Positions 30,114-63,110 of a stretch of DNA of 64,000 nucleotides are shown here, in pieces. The DNA comes from Microcoleus vaginatus HSN003 (GTDB lineage: Bacteria > Cyanobacteriota > Cyanobacteriia > Cyanobacteriales > Microcoleaceae), in assembly GCF_022701255.1 (NCBI RefSeq), contig NZ_CP031705.1, positions 5,518,001 through 5,582,000 on the forward strand, given 5' to 3'. The notes beneath the pieces are model-generated. The model was not told the origin of the DNA and ran no database searches. It was given only the letters and a program-made list of their open reading frames with translations. A program made the translations under genes and the position numbers. The stretch's first letter is position 1. Every line of letters starts with the position of its first letter.

Positions 30114-31970
30114 CTACTTGCAGATAGTTGAAACTCTTGTAAAATACTTCGGTTGAGTAGTGAAAAAATTGCAGCTTTGCTTCAGCAATTCTTCTAAACC
30201 TTCAACCTGCCTCAGCCAGACAGTGCCGTTGCTTCCAGCTACAGCAATTTGCTCTCCGTCTCGACTCCAACTGACACTAACAACATTCTCCTCGAACTCA
30301 AATTGAGCAACCTGCCGCCCCGCTAAATTCCACAGCCGTACAGTCTTGTCAATTCCCACTGTAGCAAGCCGTTCTCCGTCGGGACTAAAACTAATTGATT
30401 TCGCATCAAAATGCAAGGTTTGAAATTCCTTAACTAATTCTTTTTCGGACAAATTCCACAGCCCAACTTTGCCATTCAATGTTACTGTAGCAAAGCGATA
30501 CTGGTGTTGAGCCGGAGTGAAACTGAGCCCAATTGCCTGAATAGGCAGTGTTTTTTTCAGCTTGCCCGACAAATTCCAAAGTCGCACTGTAGATTTGCCA
30601 TCTAAAGTCGTTATGAAATCGCCGTTTGGGCTAAAATTTACGCTTCTCACTAAGCCGTTGTGACCTGGGAGTTTCAGGCTAGACGATACTAATTGTGGCA
30701 GTTTAGACAAATCCCAAATTGCAGCATAGCTGTCTATCCCTGCTGCCGCTAATAACTTTCCTTCGGGACTAAAACTGATGCTGGTAACAGAGCCTTGAAT
30801 TCCTTTCAAAGTAGAAATATTTTTACCTGATAAATTCCATATTTTAACAGTGCTGTCCCTTCCTGCTGTCGCTAAAAACTTACCGTTCGGGCTAAAAGTT
30901 ACCATATTAACTGACTGCTGTAAAGCTTTCCATTCAGCAATTTTTTGCCCGGAAAAGTTCCATATCCTAACTTGATCGTCTATTCCTGCGGTTGCTAAAA
31001 TTTGCCTATTTGGGCTAAAACTGACGCTGGTAACTGCACCTTTATGAGCTTGCCACTTTATCTTTATTGGCGGAATTAATGAGGCTTTGAGCTGCTGTGT
31101 GTCACTAATTTTATCTAGAATTATTTGTAAGGCTAACAGCGGTCTAGTTGCCGGGTATTGTTCTAGCTTAGGTTTGTTTTTAACCAAGGTTTTTAATTTT
31201 TTACCGGAGGCGATCGCCCTCAGTAAAGCTTCTGATAAAGCTTCGCTATTTTCTGTCTTTTGAGAAACAGCCAACAATAAAGCATCGCTGCCATTTTGTT
31301 CGATTTCAATACTTGCTTGTGCTAGTTTAAACCGCTGGTAAGCGAGAGTTGAAAAGCCGATCGCTGTCAGCAACGATGCTGCCAGTACCGCAGAACCGAT
31401 GCCGATCCACTGTTTGGCTTTTTGTTGGGCAGAGTCAGCTTCAATCAAAGCTTTTTCGGCATCGTAGACAGCTTTTTTGGTTTCTAGTGTAGCTGAATGC
31501 AGCAGTTGATTTTGGTCGCTCAAAATAACTTTCTGGCTGGCAGTCAAAAACTGAAAATCTTCGTTTCTCAAACTTTTTCCGGCCGCCCAAACTAATGCTG
31601 CCTGCAAATCATCCCCTCGCAACAGTTGGGAATAATCTTCACAGCTAGAATTTAGCCAGACTTTGATCGCTTCCGAGTAAGGCGACAGTTTTTCTAATTT
31701 TTCTTCAATTAAGTGTTGGTTAAATACAGCTTGATAAATAGGATTAGAAATTGTTAATTTTTCCCCGCGCTTAACAATTAATCCGCTTAATCGCAACTCC
31801 ATTTGTTCGGCACTGCCATCGGGGACAATTTCAGTTTGTTCTAAAATTTGCTGATACAATCCCAGTCTCCTGACAATGCGCTGGTTTTCTTTGAAAAGCC
31901 GATCGCGAATTGTGGACAAATGTTCTGGGACATCCTGAGATTCCCAATTCTCCACTATTTTCAAGCGCAC
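30114..31970 (-). CDS. WD40-repeat protein, 3' part of a frameshifted AAA-WD40 gene
   Basis: This 618-residue reading frame begins (GTG 31970) with RLKIVENWESQDVPEHL, which in intact relatives directly follows the AAA-like domain. It has a winged-helix/linker region, one transmembrane helix (about 190-212, GIGSAVLAASLLTAIGFSTL) and at least seven WD40 blades (motifs such as VTSVSFSPNRQILATAGID). The upstream gene stops in TAG|TG, sharing one base. Its own frame continues upstream as KEWVEKVVRL, matching the missing join. So this is the 3' half of one ancestral gene. Intact proteins of this type are large scaffold/NTPase fusions of unknown role. Confidence 0.75.
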   Translation of the reverse strand: MRLKIVENWESQDVPEHLSTIRDRLFKENQRIVRRLGLYQQILEQTEIVPDGSAEQMELRLSGLIVKRGEKLTISNPIYQAVFNQHLIEEKLEKLSPYSEAIKVWLNSSCEDYSQLLRGDDLQAALVWAAGKSLRNEDFQFLTASQKVILSDQNQLLHSATLETKKAVYDAEKALIEADSAQQKAKQWIGIGSAVLAASLLTAIGFSTLAYQRFKLAQASIEIEQNGSDALLLAVSQKTENSEALSEALLRAIASGKKLKTLVKNKPKLEQYPATRPLLALQIILDKISDTQQLKASLIPPIKIKWQAHKGAVTSVSFSPNRQILATAGIDDQVRIWNFSGQKIAEWKALQQSVNMVTFSPNGKFLATAGRDSTVKIWNLSGKNISTLKGIQGSVTSISFSPEGKLLAAAGIDSYAAIWDLSKLPQLVSSSLKLPGHNGLVRSVNFSPNGDFITTLDGKSTVRLWNLSGKLKKTLPIQAIGLSFTPAQHQYRFATVTLNGKVGLWNLSEKELVKEFQTLHFDAKSISFSPDGERLATVGIDKTVRLWNLAGRQVAQFEFEENVVSVSWSRDGEQIAVAGSNGTVWLRQVEGLEELLKQSCNFFTTQPKYFTRVSTICK

Positions 31971-32887
31971 TACCTTTTCAACCCACTCTTTAGAAGTGTT
32001 AATTTTATCTTTTCCCCCCCTTGGGCACGGGCGGCTGCATCTTCCTCTCCCCGTTGGCTAGGGGTGGCTGGTGGGGGTAAATTCGGGATTAATTGTGGAT
32101 TTTCCAACAATAGTTTGCACAGCTTTTGAGTCAAAAAAGGCTGCCCGCCCGTCCAATACAAAACCTCTCTCAAAACTTCATGAGGGCTGTCTGTCAGCTC
32201 TGCCAAACCCGCTGCTAGCGGTTGAGCTTCTGTTTCGTCAAAACCAGTTAATTCGATCGCCTTGCCAATATTAAAAGGGGTATTGCTGCTGACATTTTTC
32301 TCGTGGCACAAATCCGTCGGCGATGCTACACCTAAGAGGGCCCAAGTTAGGCGATCGAACTCTGAATTGTGGGCGCGCTTGTTGTAGCACGATCGAATTA
32401 AGGCTAAAAAATCATCGGCGGGAAAATCTAGGGCGAGAATGCTGTCGATTTCGTCAATAAAAATGACAATATTGCTGGAAATGTTGGGTAGCAGTACGGT
32501 TTCGATGAATTCGCTCAACCTTTGAACCGGAGTTAAAAAATTGCGATCGCGCCACCAAGTCCGCACGTTGACAATATCGGACAGGTTAAAGTTATTTTCG
32601 AGAATGCGTAGCAAACCAGCATACCACTGTTCGGGAGTGACGCCACGGTTGCCAATTTCCGAAATGTCGATCGCAGCACAAGCAATTTCTTCATTTCTCA
32701 GACGCTGAATTGTCCGCACCTGCAAGCTAGATTTGCCCATTTGCCGGGAATTCAAAACATAGCAAAATTCCCCTGCTTTCAATCCGTTATAAAGGTCGTC
32801 ATCGGCTTGCCGCTTCACATAATTGGGAGCGTTATTGGTGAGACTGCCGCCGACTTGATAGTAACTGGGCTTTCTGGTAAAATTCAT
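31970..32887 (-). CDS. AAA-like ATPase (AAA_35 type), 5' part of a frameshifted AAA-WD40 gene
   Basis: A 305-residue AAA-like ATPase. The start is ATG 32887 (MNFTRKPSYYQVGGSL); the frame upstream is repeat sequence. Walker A is NSRQMGKSSLQ, Walker B is IVIFIDEIDSI, and the later WTGGQPFLTQKLC segment is typical of the AAA_35 family. Near the C-terminus a low-complexity insertion (PPPATPSQRGEE to QGGEKIK), derived from a repeat, precedes the stop. One additional G in the seven-G tract (C7 at 32014-32020) would fuse this frame to the WD40 part. It is either a pseudogene, a split gene or a phase-variable gene. Confidence 0.75.
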   Translation of the reverse strand: MNFTRKPSYYQVGGSLTNNAPNYVKRQADDDLYNGLKAGEFCYVLNSRQMGKSSLQVRTIQRLRNEEIACAAIDISEIGNRGVTPEQWYAGLLRILENNFNLSDIVNVRTWWRDRNFLTPVQRLSEFIETVLLPNISSNIVIFIDEIDSILALDFPADDFLALIRSCYNKRAHNSEFDRLTWALLGVASPTDLCHEKNVSSNTPFNIGKAIELTGFDETEAQPLAAGLAELTDSPHEVLREVLYWTGGQPFLTQKLCKLLLENPQLIPNLPPPATPSQRGEEDAAARAQGGEKIKLTLLKSGLKR

Positions 32888-32894
32888 ATAAGTT

Positions 32895-32951
32895 ATTCGG
32901 CGGTTGAAACCGCTACTAAACAAACAAAATCCGCCTTCGCGGACTGAAGAA
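32895..32951. repeat. dispersed repeat (CGGCGGTTGAAACCGC type)
   Basis: This is a second copy of the unit at 12734-12790: CGGCGGTTGAAACCGC, then ACAAACAAAATCCGCC and TCGCGGACTGAAGAA. It lies 8 bases upstream of the AAA gene start and so forms the AAA gene's leader. Confidence 0.65.
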
Positions 32952-56258: not shown

Positions 56259-56889
56259 GAAATTTTCGCACAAATTTACCGATCGAGAAACCAGAAAAAC
56301 CCACAGATTGTTAAAAACTTCAAGCACATCGCAGAAAAGCTGAGAGTGACTGAAACCAAATTCAACCTCATATCGTTTCCGGTTGCATCGGAATAATAAA
56401 ATCGAGTCAACAGTTAACACTCAACCATTCAGTTTTTCGACCCCGACTCAACTGTCAACAGTCAACAGTCCACAGTCAACAATAATTCCGGTGCCACCGG
56501 AATTGATATCAAACATCGCCCAAATCTGATATTTGTGCGCCAAATACCTCACTATTATCTTGCAGCCAACTGACAAATCGATCGAATATAGCTATTTTAA
56601 AAGCTGACAAGGCAGAGCGTAAATGTGTTTAAAGGTTTGTTACCGAGGGCCTCGGATCACTACTTCTGTTAAGAGAATCGAGGATTTTCCCAGAAGCAAA
56701 GCTACTATTTCACGCTCTGAATTTTTTACGTTTTAGGAGAATCGAGGATTTTCCCAGAACCAAAGCTACTATTTCACGCTGTAAATATTTTAGTTGTATA
56801 AATATAAATAAAATTAACATTTTAATACAGCCAACTAGACTATAGGGTATTGTGGGACTAATATCCTGAGAATCGAAATAACTAAAGAT
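56259..56889. repeat. intergenic repeats, including a 44-bp direct repeat
   Basis: No gene is present. About 56400-56500 contains degenerate GTCAACAG/CAGTCAAC heptamer repeats beside a GGAATAAT palindrome. A 44-bp direct repeat (56673-56716 and 56737-56780, beginning GAGAATCGAGGATTTTCCCA) differs at one base, with 20 bases between copies. The nine bases ACTAAAGAT at 56881-56889 are the left target duplication of the IS4 element that follows. Confidence 0.8.
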
Positions 56890-57060
56890 CATTGGTAACA
56901 ACTTAGAAGGGAGTAAATTTTGTCAATACTCCTTTGTATAGAAAGATAATTGAATAATAATGATAATCAAACAAGGGGGTAAAGGTGGGATAGTCTGAAT
57001 ACGGCGGACTATCCCACCGACAGCGATTATCATTATTAATAAGTGGTGTACTCGACTGGC

Positions 57061-57158
57061 GTTGGGGGCCGGCGCTGGTAGTTGGGGGCCGGCGCTGGTA
57101 GTTGCGGGCAAGCGCTGGTAGTTGCGGGCCCGCATGATAGTTGCGGGCGTTGGTATTA
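57061..57158. repeat. 20-bp tandem repeat array inside the IS4 element
   Basis: About five units of GTTGGGGGCCGGCGCTGGTA: two perfect (57061-57100), then GTTGCGGGCAAGCGCTGGTA, then two shorter, diverged units. The array sits between the IS left end and the transposase start. The period is exactly 20 bp for the first three units. Confidence 0.92.
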
Positions 57159-57208
57159 TCAAACGATAGAATTGACAAAAAATTGAGCAATTGTGTAGGT
57201 CAGTAAAT

Positions 57209-58582
57209 ATGGCTAAGAGTCAAAAAACCAACCGTGACCATGCCAAAAAAACCACCAGACCGATGGTGGAAGACGAGGTGATTGCCTCGCAACTATCGGC
57301 ATTACTTACACCAGCCATCACCTCACAAGAAAATTACTACCGTCAACTGGGTTTACGAGGGAGAATTCTTAACCTACCGTTGATGGTAGCAGCGGTATTA
57401 ACTTTACTGTGGCGAGACGTGGCGGGAGTGACAGAACTCACAAGAATGCTGGCAAGAGAAGGTTTTTTGTGGTGCCGACCCACAACTGTCACTCAACAAG
57501 CAATGTCTCAAAGATTTTTAAGTTTTCCAGCTCAACTATTTGAGGGAGTCTTCAAAAATTTATTACCGAGTTTAAGAACATCTTGGCACCAGAGAAATCA
57601 ACGACCCCTACCAGAAAGCATTCAATTTACCTTGCGGAAATTTTCACGAGTTTGGATAGTAGATAGCTCGACCCTCGAAGCATTATTTTGCAAGCTCAAA
57701 AGCCTGGAAGATTTGCCCAAAGGGCAGTTGGCCGGGAAAATGGCAACAGTTATAGATTTAATGACCAGGCTGCCTGTCGAAATTTGGTTTCTGGAAAATC
57801 CCAAAGCTTCTGATGTGAAGTTAGAAGAAAATATTCTGCAATTGGTTGAAGGCCAAACATTACTTTTACTGGATAGGGGTTTCTATCATTTTAGCTTTTG
57901 GCTCAAATTAATCGAACGAGAGATTCACCTAATTACTCGGTTAAAAAAAGGAGCCTCAATTAAAATCGAGCAAGTATTCACCCAGAGTTACGACCTCCGA
58001 GATAGTCTAATCCGTTTGGGTTCAGGAACCACAAAAACGCCATATATCACCTTACGTTTGATTGAGGTTCGTTCGGGTAACACCTGGCATTCTTATTTAA
58101 CAAGTGTACTTGACCCTAAGATATTACCTCCCTACGTTGTGGCAGATTTATATCGCAGGCGGTGGCGAATTGAAGAAGCCTTTAATACCGTTAAAAGACT
58201 CTTGGGCTTAAGTTATTTGTGGACGGGTTCTCTCAACGGTATTCAGTTACAAATTTGGGCCACTTGGCTATTTTATGCTGTCTTGGTCGATTTAGGTGAT
58301 ACTGTTGCTGACCAACTCTGTTTGCCAATAGATGCCATCTCGTTAGAAATGATTTACCGCGGTCTTTACCATTTTTACGTCGCCCATCAACAAGGTAAGG
58401 CAACGGACCCGATTTCATATTTCACTTCCAGAGAAAATCAAGATTTAGGTATTGTTAAACGACAACGAAAACCAAATATTAAGTTAATTGTCGCGCCTTT
58501 TCCAGAACGACAGCGAGACCCTGAGCAATTTTTCTTTAAGGCTGCTATGGAAATCCCCTTGACAACTGCCATGCAGCCTTAA
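57209..58582 (+). CDS. IS4-family transposase
   Basis: A 457-residue DDE transposase starting at ATG 57209 (MAKSQKTNRDHAKKT); the six residues upstream are probably not translated. The catalytic residues are in RVWIVDSSTLEAL (first Asp), LLLLDRGFYHF (second Asp) and YRRRWRIEEAFNTVKRLLGL, the Y(2)R(3)E(6)K signature of IS4. The length is normal for the family and there are no frameshifts. The N-terminal region contains the DNA-binding helices. It should be active. Confidence 0.93.
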   Translation: MAKSQKTNRDHAKKTTRPMVEDEVIASQLSALLTPAITSQENYYRQLGLRGRILNLPLMVAAVLTLLWRDVAGVTELTRMLAREGFLWCRPTTVTQQAMSQRFLSFPAQLFEGVFKNLLPSLRTSWHQRNQRPLPESIQFTLRKFSRVWIVDSSTLEALFCKLKSLEDLPKGQLAGKMATVIDLMTRLPVEIWFLENPKASDVKLEENILQLVEGQTLLLLDRGFYHFSFWLKLIEREIHLITRLKKGASIKIEQVFTQSYDLRDSLIRLGSGTTKTPYITLRLIEVRSGNTWHSYLTSVLDPKILPPYVVADLYRRRWRIEEAFNTVKRLLGLSYLWTGSLNGIQLQIWATWLFYAVLVDLGDTVADQLCLPIDAISLEMIYRGLYHFYVAHQQGKATDPISYFTSRENQDLGIVKRQRKPNIKLIVAPFPERQRDPEQFFFKAAMEIPLTTAMQP

Positions 58583-58749
58583 CTTGTTACCAATGACTAA
58601 AGATTGCCCAGCCACATAACAACAATTTCGAGCCAAAAACTAGCGGGGAGCGCCTGACGCGATACAAAAAGGAGAATTGGCAATCTCAAGTAACCGATTA
58701 CCAAAGACAGCTCACTCTCAAATTTCAGATTCATAGAGAGAATTAAAAA

Positions 58750-61512
58750 ATGAAACGTCTGATTGTTTGCTGTGATGGAACTTGGCAACAACTAAATAGT
58801 AGTTACCCAAGTAATGTGATTAAGCTTGCCCAGGCAGTGAAATCGACCGCCAGTGACGGGGTTCCGCAGATCGTGTTTTATGACGAGGGAATTGGATCGG
58901 ATAGTAACAAGATTTTGGGCGGAGCGACTGGACTAGGAATCGGTAGAAATATACAAGATGCCTATCGTTTTCTTTCTCTCAACTATCAGCCTGGTGACGA
59001 AATCTATTTATTCGGGTTCAGTCGCGGTGCTTACACAGTCAGGAGTCTAGCCGGGATGATTTATTGCTCCGGTCTTCTAGCCCGCCCTCATATTACCAGG
59101 GCATCAGAAGCTTACGAGCTTTACCGTAACCGAGACATTAAACCAAAGGATCGGGTAGCAGCCAATTACCGTGAAGATTATGGCGATCGCGTCCCGATTA
59201 CCTTACTTGGTTGTTTCGACACCGTTGGAGCCCTTGGTATTCCTACTCTACCCGCCTTCAAGAAGTATCACGAACAGCTCAATAAGAGATACAGATTCCA
59301 CGACACCACTTTAAATCAGTCAGTTCAGAATGCGTTGCACGCCGTGGCGATCGACGAAATTCGTGAAATCTTTGATGTTACCCCGATGAAAAAAAATCCT
59401 GATGTTGAGAACCAGCGGGTTATTCAAGTTTGGTTTCCAGGAGAACATGGCTGCATCGGGGGTGGAACAGAAGAATACAGCGGGTTATCAGATCCAGCCT
59501 TGCAGTGGATGTTGGATTCAACCCGCAACCTTGGATTGGGGATTGAATTTGATCCAAGCGTCATTCCCACAGGTATCAATCCTAATTATGAGATTGATTT
59601 TAAAAACGATCCTGGGGTCTTCAAATTGGCAGGAATTAAGTTCCGCGATGTAGGCGATGCCATTGAGAATCTTCATGAAAGCGGGATCAAGCGTTTGGAA
59701 CGCCGAAAAGACTACCGCCCCAAGAATCTAAAAAGCTTTTACTCAAACTTAAATCCAATTGAAGAGGAGATAGAAGAATTTATCAAGCTGCCGGAAGAGA
59801 CGGTTAGCAATCAATCGAATCCACCACAACCCAAAGAACAAACAATTATGTCTTCACAAATAAACCCCTCTATGTCTTCAAAAAGAGACACATCAAGAGA
59901 CGGATTTAAAAACAAAGTCGAGACTTTCCTTTTAACTAACTTGAAACCGTTTTGGAACTTCATTCAAAGCAACGAGGGGCTGAGCAAAAAAGTTAACAAA
60001 ACTCTGATTAACAATGCCATTCTCAAAATTCCAACTCGCCCCTATCCTTTTAGTGCCATGTCTCCCTACACCTCTTGGGATTCGTTAAACGATCGCACTT
60101 ATTCGGGACTCCAACTACCGCCTACTGATTGGAAGCCCTTAACGAATAAAAACTACATAGGGGTTAATTTAGCACCCACAGATAATTTTGAAAAAAATCT
60201 TCCTGATGTCAAGGAACTAGAGGTCTTGTATCGCAAAAGAGGAGAGACTAAATACTCGCCCAAATCCTCTCTGATTTTTCCCTATTTCGTGCAATGGTTT
60301 ACCGACAGTTTCCTGCGGACAGATCGGCTAGATCAGCGCAGAAATAGTTCCAACCACCAAATCGATCTGTGTAACGTCTATGGGTTGAACGCCAATATTA
60401 CTCGCCTGCTGAGATCTCATCAAGGAGGAAAGCTAAAAAGCCAAATTATTAATGGCGAAGAATATCCTCCTTTTTATTATGATGACAACGGACAGCCTAA
60501 GGAAGAATTCACAGGAATTCCGCATCTAATGGTCGGGGAAAACGAAAAAAAATCGGATAAAATCCCCTATGAAAAAAGAAAAAAATTATTTGTAATGGGG
60601 ATAGAGTTAGAGCGTGTCAATGTGCAAGTGGGCTATGTAATGCTCAATGTTCTTAGCTTAAGAGAACATAATCGCGTGTGCGACCTCTTGGCAAAAAACT
60701 ATCCAACTTGGGATGATGAACGCCTTTTCCAAACCGCCAGAAATATAGTGATGGCAGAGTTTCTGAAAATTGTGCTAGAGGATTATATCAACCACATTAC
60801 TCCCTATAACTTCCAATTCTTCACAGATCCCCCAGCATTTAATCATGAAAAATGGTATCGCACCAATTGGATGTCGGTAGAGTTTACTTTAGTTTATCGT
60901 TGGCATAGTATGCTGCCCGATAAGCTGATCCATGACGGCAAAGAAATGTCTATGCCGGAGACGATGTGGAACAATGATATGATTATCAACAAGGGTTTGG
61001 GAGCTATGTTTGAAGAAACTTGTTCCCAACCCGCAGCGCAATTGAGTTTATTTAATACGCCTGAGTTCCTAATTCCAACCGAGACCGCCAGTATTCGTGC
61101 AGGTCGTGCGGCGAAATTAAGAAGCTACAACGATTACCGCGAACTCTGTAAGTATCCAAGGGTGACTGATTTTGCTCAAATTACTAGCACTGAAGATGTC
61201 CAAAAAGAATTGAAACGATTGTACGGTCACGTAGACAACATTGAGTTGTATGTGGGACTCTACGCAGAAGATCTGCGGGCAAATTCAGCCTTACCTCCTT
61301 TAGTCGGACGACTGATAGGAATTGATGCCTTTTCTCAAGCTTTCACTAATCCTCTGCTAGCCGAAAATGTGTTTAATCCAGAAACTTTTTCACCTGTAGG
61401 TTGGGAAGAGGTTATGAATACCAAGACCCTCTCGCAGGTGTTGAATCGTAATGTTCCTCCCGGCAAAGAGTACAGAGTTTCTTTCTATAATGAGGGTTGG
61501 CAACGAGCTTAA
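58750..61512 (+). CDS. DUF2235 (Tle1-like) lipase fused to a cyclooxygenase-like fatty-acid dioxygenase
   Basis: A 920-residue two-domain protein. Residues 1-330 form a DUF2235/Tle1-type alpha/beta-hydrolase: CCDGTWQ, the nucleophile elbow GFS91RGAY, LGCFD157TVG and WFPGEH233 followed by GGG give a Ser-Asp-His set. A linker of about 100 polar residues follows. Residues 430-915 closely match animal cyclooxygenase: SLREHNRVCDLL, PTWDDERLFQTAR and VYRWHSMLPD, in which Tyr716 and His719 correspond to Tyr385 and the proximal haem His388. Gln515 matches Gln203, but the distal His207 position is Asp519. Ser862 aligns near Ser530. There is no EGF or membrane-binding module and no signal peptide. I infer fatty-acid release coupled to oxygenation. 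Confidence 0.88.
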   Translation: MKRLIVCCDGTWQQLNSSYPSNVIKLAQAVKSTASDGVPQIVFYDEGIGSDSNKILGGATGLGIGRNIQDAYRFLSLNYQPGDEIYLFGFSRGAYTVRSLAGMIYCSGLLARPHITRASEAYELYRNRDIKPKDRVAANYREDYGDRVPITLLGCFDTVGALGIPTLPAFKKYHEQLNKRYRFHDTTLNQSVQNALHAVAIDEIREIFDVTPMKKNPDVENQRVIQVWFPGEHGCIGGGTEEYSGLSDPALQWMLDSTRNLGLGIEFDPSVIPTGINPNYEIDFKNDPGVFKLAGIKFRDVGDAIENLHESGIKRLERRKDYRPKNLKSFYSNLNPIEEEIEEFIKLPEETVSNQSNPPQPKEQTIMSSQINPSMSSKRDTSRDGFKNKVETFLLTNLKPFWNFIQSNEGLSKKVNKTLINNAILKIPTRPYPFSAMSPYTSWDSLNDRTYSGLQLPPTDWKPLTNKNYIGVNLAPTDNFEKNLPDVKELEVLYRKRGETKYSPKSSLIFPYFVQWFTDSFLRTDRLDQRRNSSNHQIDLCNVYGLNANITRLLRSHQGGKLKSQIINGEEYPPFYYDDNGQPKEEFTGIPHLMVGENEKKSDKIPYEKRKKLFVMGIELERVNVQVGYVMLNVLSLREHNRVCDLLAKNYPTWDDERLFQTARNIVMAEFLKIVLEDYINHITPYNFQFFTDPPAFNHEKWYRTNWMSVEFTLVYRWHSMLPDKLIHDGKEMSMPETMWNNDMIINKGLGAMFEETCSQPAAQLSLFNTPEFLIPTETASIRAGRAAKLRSYNDYRELCKYPRVTDFAQITSTEDVQKELKRLYGHVDNIELYVGLYAEDLRANSALPPLVGRLIGIDAFSQAFTNPLLAENVFNPETFSPVGWEEVMNTKTLSQVLNRNVPPGKEYRVSFYNEGWQRA

Positions 61513-61588: not shown

Positions 61589-61739
61589 TAGACCTCCCAG
61601 AAAAGCCAGTCTTGAACAGGCAGGATGCCTGTTCCACAATAATTATTGGAGAGGTCTAATAGACCTCTCCAGAAAAGCCACTCAAGGGCAGGCAAGATGC
61701 CTTACCCCTACTCCCCACAATAATTGTTGGAGATGTCTA
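61589..61739. repeat. two tandem MITE-like units with TAGACCTC...GAGGTCTA ends
   Basis: The gap between the two haem-enzyme genes (61513-61907) contains two head-to-tail units, 61589-61658 and 61660-61739. Each begins TAGACCTC and ends (T)GGAGAGGTCTA or a one-base variant, with a GGCAGGATGCCTG-type core. They share ends with the palindrome at 39020 and the core with 5712. No gene lies in this gap; the remainder is an AT-rich leader for the next gene. Confidence 0.75.
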
Positions 61740-61907
61740 ATAATAGCCGACAGTCCCAGTGGTGAGTTGTTCGTGGCTTATAGAATTACGCAATGAACCG
61801 CGAACAACTTAAACCTGAGAGCCCTAGACATCCCGTTAAAAATTAGGTAAATTACAACGGGAAAATGCCAACCATTATCCCCACAATCAGCTTTTAAAAG
61901 GTTATTT

Positions 61908-63110
61908 ATGAGCAAGAAGTTATTTACCGAATATCCAGAACAGGACGAGCTCAAATACTACGATCTTTTGGTTGAGCAAGCCAAGCTTCGGATGGATAAT
62001 CTTTACGGGGTTAAGGAGCGGGCACTGCGAGATACTCACGCCAAAACTCATGTTTGCGTTAAAGGAACTCTGGAAATTTTTGACTTTGATGAGGAAGCGA
62101 TTAAACGGGAATTGGGCAAACGCGCTTCGTTAAGTTCTTCGCAACTGAATGCGATTTCCCTTAAGCAAGGTTTGCTAGCAAAACCCAAACATTATCCTGT
62201 TTGGTTGCTATTTGCTAACGGGGCTACCAAAGTAGCCAATGATTTCGCCCGAGATTCGCGCTCAATTTCAGTGAAAGTCATGGGGGTGGAAGGGGAACGA
62301 CTGGCGCAAAGCCACGAGTCAAAAACCCAGGACATCATTGTTCACAATTCAGAGATATTTGTGAGCCAAACCATCAAAGATTACTACGGCTTTTTTTCTG
62401 CTCCTGTGGAATCACCAGATACATTGAAAAAGTGGCTAATGCGACATCCCAGACACTTTCTAGCGGTGTCAACGCTTACGGGTAGCCGGACTCCGAAGAG
62501 TTTGCTAACAGCAAAATATTGGAGCGGTTCACCCTCTGCTTTGGGTCTCAATCCCGATTTCGATCCCTCGCAGCCTGGTCTAGTTCCTGTCGAATATCCG
62601 GCTGTAATTAAGTATGGGTTTACTCCGGTTTCATGCGAACCACCGCACGACATAATTCCAGAACAATCTAGACCGGGAATTCCTAAAATGCCCTTTGTCG
62701 ATCGCGCTAAAGCCTTGGGTTTAGATCCCAATCAACCCGATAATTATTACCGGGATGACCTAATTCAAGCCCTGGCGAAACCTGACGCTCAATACTGTTG
62801 GGATTTTGGCATTCAGTTCCAAACCAGCCTAAAAATGCCGATCGACGATGGCATCAATGTCTGGAAGGAAAAGGAATCACCCTTCTTGAGAGTAGGTCGT
62901 CTCACCGTCAAGCATCAGATTATTGATTTTGAAAAACAATCTGATTTCAACGAAAACCTGAGATATTCTCCCTGGAACGGTTTGGCCGTCCATCGTCCAG
63001 TAGGCGCGATCAATCGGATACGCGGTGTTGTTTACCCAGTTGTAGCGAATTATCGGCTTCAAAAGCGAGGTCTTGTCCACCAAGAACCAACCGGAGAAGA
63101 AACATTTTAA
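61908..63110 (+). CDS. catalase-related haem protein (allene oxide synthase / hydroperoxide-processing type)
   Basis: A 400-residue catalase-fold protein. AKTH48VCVKGTLEIF carries the distal Thr-His of catalases and coral/cyanobacterial catalase-related allene oxide synthases. PVWLLFANGA, FARDSRSISVKVMGVEG and TQDIIVHN147 form the core. The proximal haem region is PWN...HRPVGAINRIR372GVVY376, with the R-x3-Y Tyr ligand spacing. It is shorter than true catalases (about 480 residues or more), lacking the C-terminal parts, as in hydroperoxide-converting relatives. It follows the lipase-cyclooxygenase fusion on the same strand, suggesting that it processes that enzyme's hydroperoxide product. The product type is not deducible. 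Confidence 0.85.
   Translation: MSKKLFTEYPEQDELKYYDLLVEQAKLRMDNLYGVKERALRDTHAKTHVCVKGTLEIFDFDEEAIKRELGKRASLSSSQLNAISLKQGLLAKPKHYPVWLLFANGATKVANDFARDSRSISVKVMGVEGERLAQSHESKTQDIIVHNSEIFVSQTIKDYYGFFSAPVESPDTLKKWLMRHPRHFLAVSTLTGSRTPKSLLTAKYWSGSPSALGLNPDFDPSQPGLVPVEYPAVIKYGFTPVSCEPPHDIIPEQSRPGIPKMPFVDRAKALGLDPNQPDNYYRDDLIQALAKPDAQYCWDFGIQFQTSLKMPIDDGINVWKEKESPFLRVGRLTVKHQIIDFEKQSDFNENLRYSPWNGLAVHRPVGAINRIRGVVYPVVANYRLQKRGLVHQEPTGEETF

Follow-up and report, generated by a model that had tools for sequence, protein, structure and literature searches.

A lipase gene fused to a cyclooxygenase-fold dioxygenase gene in Microcoleus vaginatus HSN003, upstream of a candidate hydroperoxide lyase

The 64,000-nucleotide stretch of Microcoleus vaginatus HSN003 DNA considered here (contig NZ_CP031705.1, positions 5,518,001 to 5,582,000; hereafter the window) contains, at 58750-61512 on the forward strand, a single open reading frame (ORF) of 920 codons in which a lipase domain precedes a haem dioxygenase domain. 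The frame opens with the ATG at 58750, its stop codon ends at 61512, and there are no internal stops. The lipase part (residues 1-334, 58750-59751) matches Pfam family PF09994 (T6SS_Tle1-like_cat, the former DUF2235) over residues 2-256, with an E value of 1.8e-80 and a score of 270.8 bits against a curated cut-off of 27. The catalytic residues named in the original prediction, an earlier reading of this DNA, lie exactly where it placed them: Ser91 in a GFSRG motif (59020-59022), Asp157 (59218-59220) and His233 (59446-59448). All three are kept in each of 38 aligned lipase sequences, the roles of Asp157 and His233 being assumed from this conservation and not from a structure. A linker follows (residues 335-374, 59752-59871), which alignment of the junction traces to an old intergenic spacer, and then the dioxygenase part (residues 375-920, 59872-61509), which begins at the old start, Met375, and carries Asp519, Tyr679, the catalytic Tyr716 and the proximal His719. 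This part matches PF03098 (An_peroxidase) above cut-off over residues 529-903 (E 3.2e-53). On the same strand at 61908-63110 lies a catalase-related gene of 400 codons, likely to encode a hydroperoxide lyase.

The central claim of the original prediction, that a DUF2235 hydrolase and a haem peroxidase of cyclooxygenase (COX) type share one ORF, is therefore borne out in its coordinates, its length and both domain assignments, each domain being recovered in the expected half of the protein. The nearest solved relatives of the fused protein are COX-2 chains (E 1.7e-62, residues 392-902), and a COX fold is visible in an AlphaFold2 (AF2) model of the full-length fusion (predicted local distance difference test, pLDDT, 59.5; predicted template modelling score, pTM, 0.53), in which pLDDT falls below 50 over residues 281-384. 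The model gives no usable view of the contact between the two domains. No Tle1 structures were among the 50 matches listed per fold search of this model. Neither the fused protein nor the catalase-related protein had any match in PADLOC or to any NCBIfam family, and a scan of viral contigs returned no relatives.

The COX motifs that had been pointed out are present, with SLREHNR starting at residue 636 and YRWH at 716, and Tyr716 and His719 occupy the positions of COX Tyr385 and His388. The identity as a cyclooxygenase did not survive closer comparison. The position of the COX distal His207 is taken by Asp519, within an FTDSF motif that starts at residue 517, and that of Ser530, the aspirin serine, by Ala860. 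The available sections of a 2026 review give these COX position names and describe a linoleate 10S-dioxygenase of Nostoc punctiforme (B2J5P4, 542 residues) with the same FTDSF motif, a signature of Tyr305, Ile306, Thr310, Tyr342 and the terminal motif GRxxSxIPAxxARxIGxDAFxQ, and a linear 10S-hydroperoxide as product (PMC13049297). The window dioxygenase keeps FTDSF, the four single residues and the IGxDAFxQ helix at the same spacing; its terminal motif, LRANSALPPLVGRLIGIDAFSQ, is shifted by one residue (one fewer before the helix) and differs at G469, I475, A477 and A480. For comparison, the dioxygenases of 14 Nostoc-type loci, seven picked because they already agreed with the N. punctiforme numbering and seven new, carry the expected residue at every tested position and are 542-553 residues long, and two of their neighbours in the tree (L042 and L045) have Val at 469. 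The window dioxygenase falls in a sister clade of these signature-bearing enzymes and is 55-56% identical to them, a comparison made with those sequences and not with that of N. punctiforme itself. Because the distal His is replaced, the Ser530 position is Ala and the substrate site has the residue pattern of the cyanobacterial 10S-dioxygenase, the protein is not a strict cyclooxygenase; its sequence marks it as a relative of a proven linear dioxygenase. That it should make prostaglandin-type endoperoxides is highly improbable: COX is its nearest solved relative in both fold and sequence, but its closest characterised relative is a linear 10S-dioxygenase, and the distal His and the aspirin serine are both lacking.

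The catalase-related gene supplies what the release-then-oxygenate pathway of the original prediction lacked, a downstream enzyme that completes a route already published in part. Its product matches the Pfam catalase family below cut-off (E 0.018), and the closest solved structure is the coral allene oxide synthase 1u5u (E 0.0044). The AF2 model is poor (pLDDT 36.7), so that the fold is assigned from motifs and from profile matches that are weak. Thr43-His44, Asn147 and Arg372-x-x-x-Tyr376 are invariant in 21 of 21 sequences, and we take His44, Asn147, Arg372 and Tyr376 to belong to the haem site by comparison with catalase motifs. Brash et al. in 2014 reportedly described the 10S-dioxygenase of Nostoc punctiforme together with a catalase-related 10S-hydroperoxide lyase. 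The accessible portions of two later sources likewise have a catalase-related protein of N. punctiforme serving as the 10S-hydroperoxide lyase that gives 1-octen-3-ol (PMC9410191, PMC9579011).

Both flanks are visible at 56 loci, duplicates excluded. Lipase, dioxygenase and catalase-related gene follow one another in that order at 38 (with the first two fused at five of these); three loci have only the catalase-related gene, one only the lipase and 14 neither. Many of the 56 were found by a scan with patterns derived from the window, which biases the sample towards close relatives. Of 53 genomes in the genus of G663, 11 encode a dioxygenase whose identity to the signature-bearing query exceeds 90%, and all 11 have the three-gene order. 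Given the 38 loci, the lipase appears to belong, as a third component, to the 10S-dioxygenase/hydroperoxide-lyase pathway.

Several further observations concern these genes and their relatives. In the window, the spacer between dioxygenase and catalase-related genes holds two direct repeats (61597-61742; 34 nt at 82% and 28 nt at 93%) and a perfect 12-bp inverted repeat (61647-61671). In four congeners (L110-L113), identity to the window is 92-95% for the catalase-related protein and 70-89% for the lipase, and the dioxygenase between them (54-55%) belongs to another clade, which suggests that the middle gene was exchanged. Rhizobium etli (L138, 4727-7629; just under the Pfam cut-off) and Sinorhizobium medicae (L140, 3733-6650) have, on plasmids, a gene related to the dioxygenase (~38% identical) directly after an annotated cytochrome P450. 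On a Paracoccus yeei plasmid (L139, 5033-7617), the gene ahead of another relative bears the annotation "catalase family protein", with no match in Pfam at 0.001, and pairing with a catalase-like partner may therefore extend beyond the cyanobacteria. A genome of 2.4 Mb from the same class (G181, L018) has a 3106-residue frame with a distant dioxygenase match (31% identity). Finally, four of four Tle1-like paralogues picked for their long frames (L141, L142, L143 and L144) place LamG-type (Laminin_G_3) domains ahead of the lipase domain, and L143 has jacalin and tectonin domains as well.

The fused arrangement is genus-restricted as far as surveyed. In the genus of the window, 12 of 29 genomes gave a match and 11 bear the dioxygenase. 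An uninterrupted fused frame is found in six genomes (G000, G406, G203, G404, G402 and G336; in G404 the match begins at residue 27, its likely record, L049, beginning inside the gene at a contig end), four have both genes with stops between them (G388, G396, G397 and G399), G099 has a broken dioxygenase gene, and G403 has only a relative of the lipase. Within the dioxygenase gene of G099 (L046, 8033-9502) sits an insertion whose transposase is of the ISAs1 family (NF033564, 2.9e-127); about 125 bp of the gene are gone, and the lipase and catalase-related frames beside it are open. Outside the genus, no fused frame was present among the matches listed in a survey of the order (388 genomes, 160 with a match) or of the phylum (386 genomes, 26 with a match), nor in any of 36 fetched lipase-dioxygenase tandems (29 and 7 from two sets of loci). 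Five fused records, probably those of the other five genomes, come from Microcoleus sp. MP8IB2.171, Microcoleus sp. TY_ISSM_2, isolate 341R, Tychonema sp. LEGE 06208 and Lyngbya sp. CCAP 1446/10; in all five the frame is 903-926 residues long with both Pfam domains (L049 being cut by the contig end), and the fused architecture is therefore independent of the assembly of the window. Chance resemblance, a pseudogene and a simple misassembly were set aside on the basis of the Pfam matches, the substitution ratios given below and the presence of both domains in these five records.

Trees of 56 dioxygenases and 38 lipases put the fused sequences in separate places. Grouping all six together was rejected by the approximately unbiased (AU) test (p-AU 2.1e-9 for the lipase and 7.3e-5 for the dioxygenase), as was grouping the window with L047 and L049 (1.2e-7 for the lipase; 3.4e-4 for the dioxygenase with the unfused G099 left outside), and the fewest changes of fusion state are three on both trees. 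The junctions also differ. In alignment with L046, L048, L050 and L114, a base is missing from the window within the last lipase codons, at 59730-59734, where five A residues stand in a row (CTAAAAAGC, against CTAGAAAAGC in the unfused relatives). The lipase of the unfused L048, L050 and L114 ends at a TGA, and the window frame runs on beyond that place; in G099 (L046) the lipase stop comes later than that TGA. The original prediction had singled out residues 340-430 as the place where a frameshift or misassembly would betray itself: the frame is unbroken there, and what took it past the old lipase stop is the loss, near that point, of 1 bp by comparison with the closest unfused relatives. The junctions of L047 and L049 carry other indels, and in L064-L066 the linker is distinct, being longer and containing an internal repeat. 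Across the fused sequences the linker varies in sequence and measures 34-54 residues. These sequence comparisons suggest at least two, and probably three, separate fusions by small indels that carried the frame past the lipase stop. An ancestral fusion that was split again in some lines is an arrangement that the trees alone allow.

Shine-Dalgarno-like pairing ahead of the old dioxygenase start is weaker in the fused sequences: it is -3.0 kcal/mol in four of the six fused sequences and -0.6 and +2.2 in the other two, compared with a median of -5.9 for 49 separate dioxygenase genes, of which 33 are at -5 or stronger (Mann-Whitney p 9e-4, indicative only because the sequences are related). The old start Met itself has gone in L047 only.

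The fusion in the window hangs on the single base at 59730-59734, and it has to be asked whether a sequencing error there has joined what are two genes in the genome. Besides this dependence on one base in an A-run, the error reading can draw on a further frame difference between the window and the collinear G099. It is, however, the only one in 15,055 aligned amino acids from 40 ORFs, some of which overlap on opposite strands, and an error is therefore unlikely. The genome is a single contig and 99.97% complete; the window linker also contains a frame-keeping 24-bp insertion without a stop, absent from the six relatives aligned, which supplies a second Met (residue 367, 59848); the ribosome-binding site is weak before both candidate dioxygenase starts (-1.1 and +2.2); and the L064-L066 fusions come from three separate records. 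That one further difference lies at about 31970, where an AAA_35 and a WD40 ORF of the window (30114-32923) meet; in G099 they form one frame of 968 residues, so that here, too, what is joined in one genome is split in the other.

The ratio of non-synonymous to synonymous substitution rates (dN/dS) is low in the dioxygenase part, at 0.06-0.21 in all seven pairs of fused sequences; these and the following pairwise values include change that preceded the fusions. For the lipase part it is 0.08-0.22 in four of the seven (the Tychonema-type trio, and the window with L065 at 0.17), and 0.20 for the window against the unfused L046. These figures bear on the possibility that the fusion is no more than a tolerated stop loss between adjacent, co-expressed genes, the enzymes acting independently and their joining being without function. 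We regard this as quite conceivable, if short of probable. It would account for fusions arising through small indels in a short spacer, for fused and unfused arrangements standing side by side among close relatives, for the variable linker and for the high lipase dN/dS in the remaining three of the seven fused pairs. Harder for it to explain are fusions that probably arose three times in a single genus (6 of its 11 genomes with a dioxygenase, against 0 of 36 tandems outside it), the weaker ribosome-binding site at the old start together with the lost Met of L047, and a dioxygenase dN/dS that never exceeds 0.21 between fused sequences.

The reading that we favour, as the probable one, starts from a widespread set of lipase, 10S-dioxygenase and catalase-related hydroperoxide lyase genes, the first two of which have fused in this genus and, as far as surveyed, in no other. 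It builds on the fusion itself, the intact catalytic residues, the conserved gene order, the low dN/dS of the dioxygenase and, in four of the seven fused pairs, of the lipase, the repeated origin and the weak ribosome-binding site at the old start; the substrate of the lipase, the regiochemistry of the dioxygenase, the lyase activity, the seating on the membrane and any channelling are inferred. The N-terminal alpha/beta-hydrolase (Ser91/Asp157/His233) would free an unsaturated C18 fatty acid, most likely oleic or linoleic, from a membrane lipid. The COX-fold haem dioxygenase would sit on the membrane via its N-terminal helices, which the AF2 model places at residues 386-425, where the available text of the review aligns three 10S-dioxygenase helices with the COX membrane-binding domain (PMC13049297). 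A radical formed on Tyr716 would then lead to insertion of O2 and a 10S-hydroperoxide, which the separate catalase-like haem protein would cleave into a C10 oxo-acid and a C8 alcohol, for example 1-octen-3-ol. Fusion would put the supplier of the fatty acid beside the oxygenase and fix their ratio. The domains, the conserved gene order and the retention of the catalytic residues thus lend support to the release-then-oxygenate idea of the original prediction. We extend it only tentatively to a self-contained pathway from membrane to volatile oxylipin, in which three fusions arose in the genus because tethering passes the fatty acid from bilayer to oxygenase.

The opposite order of events would use the same domains and the same gene order: the dioxygenase would oxidise acyl chains within lipids or freed by other lipases, and the Tle1-like domain would remove the oxidised chains in a form of repair. 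Lipases that strip oxidised acyl chains exist in other systems. COX-type channels, on the other hand, take free acids. The characterised 10S-dioxygenase, too, is reported in the sections available to act on free oleic and linoleic acid (PMC13049297), and we consider the repair reading improbable.

A number of points weigh against the pathway that we favour. The lipase matches the solved Tle1 proteins (PDB 4o5p and 9j3f) only weakly, with E values of 0.15 and 0.03, and the AF2 model of the fusion, whose quality is modest, offers nothing reliable on the interface between the domains. Given the sister-clade position and the changes in the terminal motif, the regiochemistry of the window dioxygenase could differ. 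The lipase dN/dS is high for L047/L049 (0.66), window/L049 (0.77) and window/L047 (0.95), as if the lipase were less constrained; the unfused pair L112/L113 is also high (0.80), and the elevation may therefore belong to the lipase lineage rather than to the fusion. Linker dN/dS is 0.30-1.76 over four pairs, the highest value being that of L064/L065. With 14 of 56 dioxygenase loci having neither neighbour and three only the catalase-related gene, the lipase is not obligatory, and G099 has lost its dioxygenase to an insertion yet keeps the other two genes. In the window the catalase-related gene starts 395 bp past the dioxygenase stop, so that co-transcription is not certain.

An IS4-like insertion sequence (56890-58595, forward strand; transposase 57191-58582), a neighbour and not part of the system, sits between an upstream MFS gene and the fused gene, ending about 150 bp before the latter. 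It is flanked by 9-bp target duplications (ACTAAAGAT; 56881-56889 and 58596-58604), and G099 has the empty site with a single copy of the target (L046 at 6113). The element may have displaced or supplied a promoter.

The dioxygenase/lyase pair was known already; searches of open-licence literature turned up no account of a lipase gene as a common companion of that pair, or of its recurrent joining to the dioxygenase, although the 2014 original, which lies outside that set, may mention a lipase neighbour. What that literature offers in its accessible parts on DUF2235 in cyanobacteria concerns polymorphic toxins and includes no such fusion. The available passages on the cyanobacterial 10S-dioxygenase are silent on where the free fatty acid comes from; the lipase gene often found next to the dioxygenase and lyase genes suggests one, and with it a candidate lipase for the cyanobacterial route to 1-octen-3-ol. 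Repeated fusion within one genus also provides natural matched pairs, fused and split, for asking whether tethering a lipase alters flux through a COX-fold oxygenase. If the tentative extension, in which tethering passes the fatty acid straight on, is true, this is a natural phospholipase-to-dioxygenase substrate-channelling enzyme, of a kind that animals build from separate proteins.

Comparison with known systems places the fusion among several partial likenesses. With the N. punctiforme 10S-dioxygenase (B2J5P4) it shares the COX fold, FTDSF with its Asp, Tyr305, Ile306, Thr310, Tyr342 and a catalase-related partner gene, but that enzyme stands alone at 542 residues, whereas the window dioxygenase belongs to the sister clade and is joined to a lipase. 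The catalytic domain profile and the conserved Ser, Asp and His are common to the Tle1-like phospholipases of type VI secretion systems (PF09994; PDB 4o5p, 9j3f); as a difference, ten other ORFs scanned in the window and two neighbours gave no match to secretion-system families. Fungal dioxygenase-cytochrome P450 fusions likewise join a COX-type dioxygenase to an enzyme of the same pathway, but there, as far as the available sections go, the partner acts after the dioxygenase (PMC13049297), whereas the lipase would act before it; the rhizobial P450-dioxygenase pairs resemble these fusions with the genes kept separate. The coral allene oxide synthase-lipoxygenase (PDB 3dy5) and, from the accessible part of its description, the Acaryochloris marina catalase-lipoxygenase (PMC11719350) also unite sequential oxylipin enzymes in one chain. 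In both, the oxygenase is joined to a downstream catalase-like enzyme and not, as in the window, to an upstream lipase.

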